A DNA stretch of 38,524 nt from a virus: the IMG/VR virus record IMGVR_UViG_3300044971_000726, positions 1 through 38,524 of that record. One strand, 5' to 3'. The notes beneath the pieces were generated by a model. It was not told the origin of the DNA. It made no database searches and was given only the letters and a program-made list of their open reading frames with translations. Numbering within the stretch: position 1 is the stretch's first letter; each line of letters opens with the position of its first letter. This document shows, one piece after another, positions 1 to 38,524 of the stretch. A program made the position numbers and the translations under genes.

Positions 1-105
1 CCTCCGGTCGGGTGCTGTGCTACCCCAACGCCAAATTTGATGATGAAGGCAACGTGACGTACACCAAAGCAGCCTGGAAGCCCGCCGCCGACGCCAAGGA
101 GTGGC
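1..105. repeat. Terminal overlap, identical to 38420-38524
   Basis: The first 105 bases repeat the last 105 exactly, in direct orientation, inside the polymerase reading frame. This is the usual mark of a circular or circularly permuted genome assembled as a linear contig. A physical direct terminal repeat inside a coding gene is much less likely. Confidence 0.95.
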
Positions 106-359
106 CCCGCGCTCGTCTGTGGCGTGGTCTGGCTTGCGAGAATGTCACGCAAGCAGCAGCGCACGACATCCTGCGCCATTCACTGCGCCAGCTCGATGGC
201 GTGGTCCTACACGTCCATGATGAGATCGTCGTCGAGTGCCCCGAGGCCGAGGCCGAGGCGGTTGCTGCGCGTATGCACCAGATTATGTGTACGCCGCCTG
301 CATGGGCGGTTGGCCTGCCCTTGGCCGCTGAAGGTGTGACCACCACCCGTTATTCATAG
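1..359 (+). CDS. DNA polymerase I (family A), C-terminal end across the circular join
   Basis: This is the last part of the polymerase gene that starts at 36859; the reading frame joins exactly when position 38420 is laid on position 1. It holds motif C of the palm domain, VHDEIVVE, with the catalytic Asp at about residue 594 of the joined 639-residue protein. The frame is open from the first base and stops at 357-359. A GC-rich hairpin follows the stop. Seen: frame continuity and motif C. Known: the Asp of HDE is a metal ligand in all family A polymerases. Positions 1-105 are the same DNA as 38420-38524 and should be counted once. Confidence 0.95.
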   Translation, partial: SGRVLCYPNAKFDDEGNVTYTKAAWKPAADAKEWPRARLWRGLACENVTQAAAHDILRHSLRQLDGVVLHVHDEIVVECPEAEAEAVAARMHQIMCTPPAWAVGLPLAAEGVTTTRYS

Positions 360-36185: not shown

Positions 36186-36812
36186 ATGTCAACTTTTTCT
36201 CTCGCAAATCTCCCTGCAGTCACCACACTCTCCACCGCTTTGCGTGCGCTTGAACAAGGCGCAGGCACATCGGGCGTTGTCATCCTGAAAATGGACAAGA
36301 CAGGCCATTGGGTGTTCGGTGCTGACCAAACCGAAGTCGAAGACGACTCGACTTGGGCCGTCAATCCTTTCTCGTTTGTCCACGGCTTTATTGCTTGGGG
36401 CGACGGTGAAGTGCTTGGCGAGAAAATGACCGGTGTGCAGCATCCCCTGCCAGAACTTGACGCAGCGCCCCCAAGCGCCAAGCGCGGTTGGGAGACACAG
36501 ATCGGTATGTCTTTGAAGTGCCTCACAGGTGAGGACAAGGACATGGAAGCACGCTTTACCACGACCTCGGTCGGCGGTAAGAAGGCCGTGCAGGCTCTGG
36601 GCGTCGCCATCGCCACGCAAGTGGAGAAGGACCAGTCCAAGCCTGTGGCCATCGTGCGTCTGAAGAAGGACCACTACGTCCACAAATCCTACGGCCGCAT
36701 CTACACCCCGGTGTTTGAGATCGTAGAGTGGGCCAGCATGGACGGCGAAGCGCCAGCGGTTGAAGAAGCCGAAGCAGCACCGGCTGCTGGTCGCCGCCGC
36801 CGCGCAGCGTAA
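36186..36812 (+). CDS. Probable ssDNA-binding protein (DUF2815-like context), 208 aa
   Basis: Next to the DUF2800 gene and just before the polymerase, where phages of several groups carry a single-strand DNA-binding protein. The middle is beta-rich (GVVILKMDKTGHWVFG, WETQIGMSLKC, RIYTPVFEIVEWASM), fitting an OB-like fold, and the C-terminus is acidic then basic (EEAEAAPAAGRRRRAA). It lacks the usual acidic C-terminal tip of bacterial SSB. AAAGGA is seven bases before the ATG. Function is inferred mainly from context. Confidence 0.65.
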   Translation: MSTFSLANLPAVTTLSTALRALEQGAGTSGVVILKMDKTGHWVFGADQTEVEDDSTWAVNPFSFVHGFIAWGDGEVLGEKMTGVQHPLPELDAAPPSAKRGWETQIGMSLKCLTGEDKDMEARFTTTSVGGKKAVQALGVAIATQVEKDQSKPVAIVRLKKDHYVHKSYGRIYTPVFEIVEWASMDGEAPAVEEAEAAPAAGRRRRAA

Positions 36813-36851
36813 CCTTTTCTGATGCCCAGTGACAGTGGGCATTGGAAAAGG
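36813..36851 (+). promoter_or_regulatory. Hairpin that covers the ribosome binding site of the DNA polymerase
   Basis: Directly after the stop of the upstream gene, CCTTTTC (36813-36819) pairs with GAAAAGG (36845-36851), TG with TG as two wobble pairs, and ATGCCCA (36822-36828) with TGGGCAT (36836-36842), giving a 16-bp stem and a 7-nt loop GTGACAG. The 3' arm contains the Shine-Dalgarno AAAAGG, seven bases before the polymerase ATG at 36859, so the folded RNA would block initiation. The pairing is seen in sequence; repression or autoregulation is inference. Confidence 0.75.
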
Positions 36852-36858
36852 AACGACT

Positions 36859-38524
36859 ATGCTGTGGATTGATTTCGAGACAAGATCGCGTTGTGACCTG
36901 AAGTCCAAGGGCGTGTACAACTACGCCCAAGACGCCAGCACCGATGTGCTGTGCATGTCCTACGCCTTCGACGATGGTGAGGTCGTCACCTGGTTGCCCG
37001 GTCAGCCGCTGCCTGACTTTACGGGCCACATGATCTACGCCCACAACGCCGCGTTTGAGCGTTTAATTTTTTGGTATGTCTTGCAGAAGAACTACCCCCT
37101 AGAATCGTTTTACTGCACCGCAGCACAAGCCCGCGCTAACTGTGCGCCTGGCTCGCTGGAAGACGTGGGGCGCTTCGCTGGCGCTGACATGCGCAAGGAC
37201 CACCGCGGCGCGCAACTGATCCGGCTGCTGTCGCTGCCGCAGGCCAACGGCCAGTTCCGTGAAGACGCCGCCCTGATGCAAGAGATGGTCGAGTACTGCG
37301 AGCAAGACGTGCGGTCCATGCGCGCCATCAGCAAGGCCCTGCGGCCACTCTCGGCTGATGAACTAGCCGACTATCACACCAACGAGCGCATCAACGACCG
37401 TGGCGTGCTGGTGGACGTGCCGCTGTGCCAAGCCGCTGTCAAGTACTCGGCCGACGAGACCGTCGAGATTCAGCAGATCGTGTCCGAGGTGACCGACGGC
37501 GTCATCACCAGCGTGCGCTCGCCCAAGATGCGCGAGTGGGTGCTGGAGCGCGTCGGGCCCGAGGCCAAGAAGCTGATGTGGACCGGCGAGAAGTATTCGA
37601 TCGACAAGACTGTGCGGGCCAACCTGCTCGCGATGGAAGACCCCGATGAGATTCCGCCCCATGTTGCAGACGTCATCCAGTGCGCGGACGACCTCTGGGC
37701 GTCTTCGGTTGCGAAGTTCAACCGCTTGTCGAACCTCGCCGATGACGAGGATCACCGAGTCCGAGGCGCTTTCGTTTTTGCTGGAGGGGCTGCCACCGGC
37801 CGTGCGTCGAGCTATGGCGCGCAGGTTCACAACTTTACCCGCAAGTGCGCCAAAGAGCCTGATGAAGTACGCCACGCTATGGTGCGTGGCCACACAATCA
37901 CACCAAGATTTGGTAAACGCATTACAGATGTGCTCAAAGGGATGCTCCGCCCGGCGCTGATCGCCAAGCCTGGCCACGTCCTGATCGCCTACGACTGGTC
38001 GGCCATCGAGGGCCGTGTGCACCCGTGGCTGTCCAACTGCCCGGCAGGCGAGGCCAAGCTGGACGTGTTCAGGTCTGGCCTTGACCCGTACAAGGTCAAC
38101 GCAGCCGCCACCTTTCGTGTGCCTTACGCCGACGTCGCTGGTGACCAGCGTCAGGTGGGCAAGGTGCAAGAGCTGGCCCTTGGCTTTCTGGGCGGCGCCG
38201 GAGCGTTTGAGGTGTTCGGCCGCGCCTACGGCATCCGGCTGTCACCGGGCGAAGTCCAGCGCGCTGTGGACGGCTGGCGCAGGGCCAACCCGTGGGCGCA
38301 GGCGCACGGCCAGCAGCTGGAGAACGCCTACCTGCGCGCCATGAGAAACAAAGGGCATGAATTTAAAGCCGGGCGTGTTGTGTACTTGTTCGACGGCCAG
38401 ACCCTCTGGTATGCTTTGCCCTCCGGTCGGGTGCTGTGCTACCCCAACGCCAAATTTGATGATGAAGGCAACGTGACGTACACCAAAGCAGCCTGGAAGC
38501 CCGCCGCCGACGCCAAGGAGTGGC
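36859..38524 (+). CDS. polA-like: DNA polymerase I (family A) with 3'-5' exonuclease, continues at 1
   Basis: Replicative polymerase of 639 aa when joined across the circle. The N-terminal exonuclease has ExoI IDFET (Asp5, Glu7), ExoII AHNAAFE (Asn63) and ExoIII YCEQD (Tyr146, Asp150). The polymerase has motif A YDWSAIEGRV (Asp379), motif B RQVGKVQELALGF (Arg431, Lys435) and motif C HDE (about 594, in positions 1-359). The position equivalent to Phe762 of E. coli Pol I is Leu, and the Tyr766 equivalent is Phe. There is no 5'-3' exonuclease. The ATG at 36859 is preceded by AAAAGGA inside a strong hairpin. It is probably the central enzyme of the replication module. Confidence 0.95.
   Translation, partial: MLWIDFETRSRCDLKSKGVYNYAQDASTDVLCMSYAFDDGEVVTWLPGQPLPDFTGHMIYAHNAAFERLIFWYVLQKNYPLESFYCTAAQARANCAPGSLEDVGRFAGADMRKDHRGAQLIRLLSLPQANGQFREDAALMQEMVEYCEQDVRSMRAISKALRPLSADELADYHTNERINDRGVLVDVPLCQAAVKYSADETVEIQQIVSEVTDGVITSVRSPKMREWVLERVGPEAKKLMWTGEKYSIDKTVRANLLAMEDPDEIPPHVADVIQCADDLWASSVAKFNRLSNLADDEDHRVRGAFVFAGGAATGRASSYGAQVHNFTRKCAKEPDEVRHAMVRGHTITPRFGKRITDVLKGMLRPALIAKPGHVLIAYDWSAIEGRVHPWLSNCPAGEAKLDVFRSGLDPYKVNAAATFRVPYADVAGDQRQVGKVQELALGFLGGAGAFEVFGRAYGIRLSPGEVQRAVDGWRRANPWAQAHGQQLENAYLRAMRNKGHEFKAGRVVYLFDGQTLWYALPSGRVLCYPNAKFDDEGNVTYTKAAWKPAADAKEW
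38420..38524. repeat. Terminal overlap, identical to 1-105
   Basis: Second copy of the 105-base identity that closes the molecule. The polymerase frame passes through it without a shift, supporting circular closure at one base precision. Confidence 0.95.

Follow-up and report, generated by a model that had tools for sequence, protein, structure and literature searches.

A conserved hairpin over the ribosome binding site of a phage family A DNA polymerase gene: a candidate translational gate

The sequence analysed here (the window) comprises 38,524 bases, an IMG/VR virus record from a freshwater phage. Its direct terminal repeat of 105 bases (38420-38524 = 1-105) makes it likely that this is a complete genome assembled as a circle. 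Because the terminal bases 38420-38524 repeat 1-105, the DNA polymerase gene that reaches the end of the window runs on at 1-359. The genes of this region are ordered DUF2800/exonuclease, SSB-like, polymerase, primase-like, VRR-NUC, and SNF2-type helicase, a neighbourhood that resembles the replication module of phage Enc34 (PMC5686142). The polymerase matched Pfam DNA_pol_A (PF00476) and PHROG 17, in agreement with the family A assignment made in the initial annotation of this DNA. The same annotation had called the upstream gene ssDNA-binding-like, a name that fits the gene order and that we keep as a putative one (SSB-like) on gene order alone, since neither Pfam, hhalign, nor Foldseek confirmed it. 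The protein had no Pfam match, including to the Enc34-type SSB family PF10991, its hhalign comparison with Enc34 ORF6 was not significant, and Foldseek listed SSBs only at E > 0.05 for a low-confidence predicted fold (pLDDT 68). The features at the junction of the two genes are the following.

36186-36812, plus strand: SSB-like gene, 208 aa, named by gene order; its TAA stop (36810-36812) touches the hairpin
36813-36828, plus strand: 5' stem arm, complementary to the Shine-Dalgarno (SD) region, from pairing, fold, and covariation
36820-36821, plus strand: 5' side of a tandem wobble (U36820-G36844, G36821-U36843), invariant in relatives
36829-36835, plus strand: loop GTGACAG, which varies among relatives
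36836-36851, plus strand: 3' stem arm containing the SD, from pairing, fold, and covariation
36848-36853, plus strand: SD AAGGAA, partly within the stem, with an anti-SD duplex energy of -5.6 kcal/mol
36859-38524, then 1-359, plus strand: family A DNA polymerase gene, split by the window ends

The 5' arm (CCTTTTCTGATGCCCA) pairs with the 3' arm (TGGGCATTGGAAAAGG) across the 7-nt loop to form a 39-nt hairpin (36813-36851) with a stem of 16 bp, 14 of them Watson-Crick pairs and the other two a tandem U·G/G·U, exactly as the initial annotation had placed it. The stem begins directly after the upstream stop codon and takes in part of the SD, as had also been proposed, and it ends 7 nt before the polymerase ATG (36859), giving a stop-start spacing of +46 nt. 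The suggested comparison of region 36800-36880 with shuffled controls bore out its stability, with a folding energy of -35.2 kcal/mol against -19.05 +/- 2.93 kcal/mol for the shuffles (z -5.5), none of 200 being as stable. The hairpin alone, identical in sequence in a related locus (L100), accounts for -25.1 kcal/mol, and in the window genome an extra 9-bp helix (36803-36811 with 36858-36866) joins the stop region to the start codon. Among 44 gene starts chosen from the ORF table, the polymerase RBS had the third-highest opening cost (z about 2). One listing built on exact seeds missed the hairpin, probably since its G-U pairs break the seed.

Two scans of IMG/VR yielded 160 loci, with 118 distinct SSB-polymerase junctions. 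Bacterial genomes gave ten loci, every one in metagenome-assembled bins of mixed taxonomy. The hairpin, in the general form ..UUUCUGA-stem-loop-stem-UUGGAAA.., was present at 59 of the 118 junctions, seven of which add a GC-bounded element, while the remainder comprised 45 with other GC-bounded elements, seven without a hairpin in which stop and start overlap, and seven of other kinds. Across 24 distinct hairpins, 91.4% of the cells pair, and the compensatory changes that the initial annotation had proposed to look for in related phages were found, with 34 doubly changed stem cells compared to 12.7 +/- 2.7 after shuffling (0/500). The covariation score was 0.264, compared to 0.104 for shuffled alignments, which ignore relatedness, and at most 0.139 for slid versions, a control that does not. 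Since the stem covaries across relatives, the hairpin is no chance fold. The inner stem is found as several exchanged versions (GCCCA/UGGGC, GGGCG/CGCCC, GCCCC/GGGGC, and GCCGC/GCGGC), and the loops differ, whereas the CUGA/UUGG core with its tandem U-G/G-U was invariant throughout the alignment of 24 sequences and, in a search permitting other pairs, in every one of the 31 distinct hairpins recovered.

The genomic distribution of the motif led to the same rejection of a chance hairpin, and also of a widespread motif. Of 70 matches from two pattern scans of IMG/VR that could form the inner stem, 67 were near this SSB-like gene or polymerase and the other three represented one capsid-gene context, whereas all 65 non-pairing matches fell elsewhere, as chance predicts. 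With a third and more specific pattern, each of the 44 matches lay beside the SSB-like gene and/or the polymerase; a scan with a C-variant pattern gave no matches. No Rfam 15 family reached its gathering score for the hairpin, the only matches being to miRNAs at chance level (E 0.15-0.84) and well short of the cut-off, and the hairpin was undescribed in the literature searched, which took in few subscription journals. Another phage family (L250, L258, and L272) has a hairpin of this form (CUUUCUGA..UUGGAAAGGAG, with 9 inner bp and a 4-nt loop), placed 12 nt after a capsid-like gene and ahead of a 168-aa gene.

Between the window and L100, the junction block was 100% identical and identity was lower further out, a pattern consistent with movement of the block by recombinational exchange. 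This identity amid differing flanks, and the presence of inserted cargo genes, HNH-like ones included, at the same junction could also reflect an element acting at the DNA level without any RNA function, for instance a site at which cargo recombines or inserts. We regard this as extremely improbable, because compensatory changes and conserved G-U pairs are a signature of RNA, and because the distances to the stop and start codons fit the geometry of translation.

The position of the hairpin between two operon genes raises the question of transcript ends and processing. An intrinsic terminator was rejected: a U-tract is absent from both strands, the arms are U-rich on the 5' side and A-rich on the 3' side, opposite to a terminator, and the hairpin was not among the terminator-like sites found. 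Phage Enc34 (JQ340774), with its similar replication module, also has a stem-loop between its SSB and family A polymerase genes, but there the stem is followed by a U-tract and resembles an intrinsic terminator, and the fold of the whole region is no better than shuffles (z -0.53). The Enc34 arrangement, together with relatives whose GC stems occupy the same junction, in some cases with T-tracts, would suit a processing or stability element, either a site of the RNase III type or a barrier at the 3' end protecting the SSB-like mRNA. Such a role would not account for the constant location of the SD in the 3' arm or for the fixed distance to the start, and we consider it very unlikely.

The initial annotation had compared the hairpin to the operator of T4/RB69 gene 43, at which the polymerase would bind its own mRNA and repress its translation, and this comparison was not supported. 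In both cases a hairpin lies upstream of a replicative polymerase gene, here over the RBS itself, and the conserved core could conceivably serve as a protein site. However, the gene 43 operator sits about 40 bases upstream, spans 16-18 bases with a UAAC loop, and leaves the RBS outside the hairpin (PMC3014915), whereas here the 3' arm contains the SD and 7 nt separate the stem from the ATG. We tested these two defining features, the layout with the RBS outside and the UAAC-type loop, and found neither; the loop, GUGACAG in the window, is different in other relatives. The T4/RB69 polymerase also belongs to another family than the family A enzyme of the window, RB69 gp43 having been likened to alpha-type polymerases (PMC3014915). 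None of nine distinct relatives with a polymerase at least 95% identical to that of the window had the hairpin; nearly all had GC-bounded elements instead, mostly with a weak SD. The hairpin also precedes genes other than the polymerase: in 16 hairpin loci, an insert of at least 300 nt separates the SSB-like gene from the polymerase, and in the inserts that were read, the hidden SD is that of a gene within the insert. By eye, these genes were identified from their sequence as PAPS-reductase-like, DNA methyltransferase-like, and HNH-like, among others. The hairpin behind the capsid-like gene lies in a different phage altogether. Finally, a hairpin of about -25 kcal/mol should repress without any protein. 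The polymerase thus does not appear to repress itself through this hairpin, and we give an autogenous operator of the T4/RB69 kind very little credence.

The alternative offered in the initial annotation, translational coupling, emerged as the best-supported reading, with its mechanism inferred from sequence. An RBS held in structure beside an upstream stop codon is the arrangement that marks coupling by RNA unfolding, and of the 108 distinct hairpin instances, 92 had such a stop within 0-8 nt of the stem; in three, those of the capsid context, the distance was 12 nt, and in seven a GC-bounded element stood between stop and hairpin. In nearly all instances the SD was within the 3' arm and the hairpin 7-20 nt ahead of the ATG. 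When the bases that a terminating ribosome would cover (stop+12) were blocked, the SD region became more open, its median unpaired probability rising from 0.19 to 0.67, a thermodynamic estimate that assumes the ribosome footprint. Adjacency of stop and hairpin was also kept where another reading frame intervenes. In L026, L063, L070, L072, and L075, a conserved ORF of 36-38 aa (MKLELDVQEINAVMALLASLMDKIRMQAQAQMPTQE) with a good SD follows the SSB-like gene, its start (about 110 nt before the hairpin) overlapping the SSB-like stop and its own stop abutting the hairpin, and in L118 a different ORF precedes the hairpin with the same adjacency.

The placement of the polymerase start across the 118 junctions points in the same direction. 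It came immediately after the hairpin in 42, overlapped or lay within 12 nt of the stop of the preceding ORF in 45 (often as ATGA, TGATG, or TAATG, a few of these ORFs being short or due to chance), and in the remaining 31 mostly followed a GC-bounded element, its SD being weak (median -0.7 kcal/mol). An RBS that is at once open, independent, and strong is therefore rare for the polymerase, as coupling predicts.

Based on these data, we consider it moderately probable that the hairpin is a cis-acting translational gate, which hides the polymerase SD and is opened by the ribosome that ends the SSB-like gene. The two genes would be co-transcribed, and on the polycistronic mRNA the hairpin would mask the SD so that independent initiation at the polymerase would hardly be possible. 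A ribosome completing the SSB-like gene would halt where the stem begins and free the SD by covering the 5' arm with its footprint, and either the freed SD would be used for initiation or the terminating ribosome would re-initiate at the polymerase. Polymerase synthesis would in this way be tied to, and held below, synthesis of the SSB-like protein. We infer the repression, the ribosome-driven opening, the co-transcription, and the biological purpose of the hairpin from this arrangement. Counting against coupling are the seven hairpins parted from the stop by a GC-bounded element, the clade of L122, in which the hairpin touches the ATG and the SD is poorly spaced, and the invariant tandem wobble.

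Coupling by RNA unfolding with comparable spacing is established elsewhere (PMC12548453). Phage f1 VII-IX, MS2 coat-lysis, and E. coli rpmI-rplT share a downstream RBS that is held in a hairpin and can be opened by upstream ribosomes, and the stop-start spacing of rpmI-rplT is +52 nt compared to +46 nt here (PMC12548453). Unlike in those systems, coupling in the window is a prediction, the upstream gene ends right at the foot of a compact 39-nt hairpin, and that hairpin belongs to a conserved family with an invariant tandem wobble. RBS-sequestering hairpins are thus known as a kind, and what is new is a conserved, portable hairpin family with this wobble. If the gate operates as proposed, the concrete rule is that a phage replication operon may limit polymerase output and link it to the gene in front, with no repressor involved, by means of a stop-adjacent hairpin that hides the SD; being conserved, portable, and reused before cargo genes, the hairpin family would be a compact part for translational control.

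RBS-sequestering hairpins are also found in phages related to T4, before e, soc, 49, I-TevI, and mobE, and the window hairpin resembles them in holding the SD in a stable helix before a phage gene; the SD and/or AUG within a stable helix is the defining trait of the type. Both groups also lie partly ahead of HNH-like or other mobile genes. In T4, e, soc, I-TevI, and probably mobE act through a switch in which long transcripts fold the hairpin, and relief comes from late promoters located in the 5' strand or beyond it (PMC3014915, PMC2988022). A second transcript from an internal promoter, with a free SD, could be envisaged here as well, but no promoter-like site was found at the hairpin in a scan covering sigma-70 types only, and the polymerase is not a late gene; we consider a switch of this kind highly improbable. 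The hairpin resembles the RBS-sequestering type of e, soc, I-TevI, and mobE in its working and, on present evidence, would be relieved by the upstream ribosome and not by a late promoter.

Simple sequestration does not account for the invariance of the tandem wobble, which leaves room for a trans-acting factor. Such a factor (the SSB-like protein, or another phage or host protein) might recognise the CUGA/UUGG core and modulate the gate, and the fact that the tandem U-G/G-U never varies while the rest of the stem does is what this idea would lead one to expect. Frequent exchange of junction blocks could also keep the core uniform, however, and we judge a modulating factor to be distinctly unlikely. 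Somewhat less unlikely, if still speculative, is a broader proposal that sees the junction as a slot reserved for exchangeable cis-acting RNAs (the tandem-wobble SD hairpin, the GC-bounded elements, and a pseudoknot of about 90 nt absent from Rfam 15) that would set the ratio of SSB to polymerase and that of inserted cargo genes, the invariant U-G/G-U core being a recognition site for a trans factor and not a passive lock.

Several kinds of insert and element were observed at this junction. PAPS-reductase-like, DNA methyltransferase-like, and HNH-like cargo genes lie between the hairpin, or another element, and the polymerase (L010, L013, L036, L039, L053, L059, L109, L112, L116, L118, L123, and L138), and their stops often overlap the polymerase start. 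One GC-bounded family has GAAAGCGGATGCTG..GCAGCGAGTA in a GGGG..CCCC stem with a highly variable middle (L001, L002, L009, L034, L035, and others) and was confined to the SSB-polymerase junction among the loci examined. Two smaller GC-bounded families (C and D) share the junction, and tandem elements occur in L046, L131, and L133. At L131:2751-2820, a GGGGGT..ACCCCC element contains a tRNA-like sequence (Rfam tRNA, 35.5 bits) that received no ARAGORN call.

The pseudoknot, absent from the window, replaces the hairpin at some junctions (L152:2904-2993; also L022, L047, and L131) and was found in many IMG/VR loci from L354 on. It has a closing stem, P1; AAGCCAG pairs with CUGGCUU in the loop of a second hairpin, and UCGA pairs with UCGA. 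In 39 distinct sequences, 98.1% of cells pair, with 168 doubly changed compared to 44.9 after shuffling (0/500), and the covariation score was 0.491 compared to at most 0.115 for slid versions, over which the structure is favoured because it was read by eye from the same sequences. The AAGCCAG/CUGGCUU helix itself varies little (two of seven pairs). The pseudoknot turned up in several gene contexts in a pattern scan, which matched at least 120 viral contigs, and among the matches listed, 101 of 120 were not beside this SSB-like gene or polymerase. At least four T closely follow P1 in 40 of 107 elements, so the pseudoknot may sit in the loop of terminator-like stems. Rfam 15 gave chance-level matches only and blastn against INPHARED none, and the pseudoknot is probably a new structured RNA family. 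One gene junction hosts several unrelated structured RNAs, among them this pseudoknot, which has strong support and is widespread among uncultivated phages. In two other phages (L372:5797-8449 and L378:4216-6871), the pseudoknot lies 6-7 nt after the gene of a PF10991 ssDNA-binding protein and 17-19 nt before a large ORF, which may encode a polymerase; that of L372 had a weak match to a polymerase exonuclease domain, below the Pfam cut-off. Their layout of SSB, structured RNA, and next gene is the same as that at the hairpin junction.
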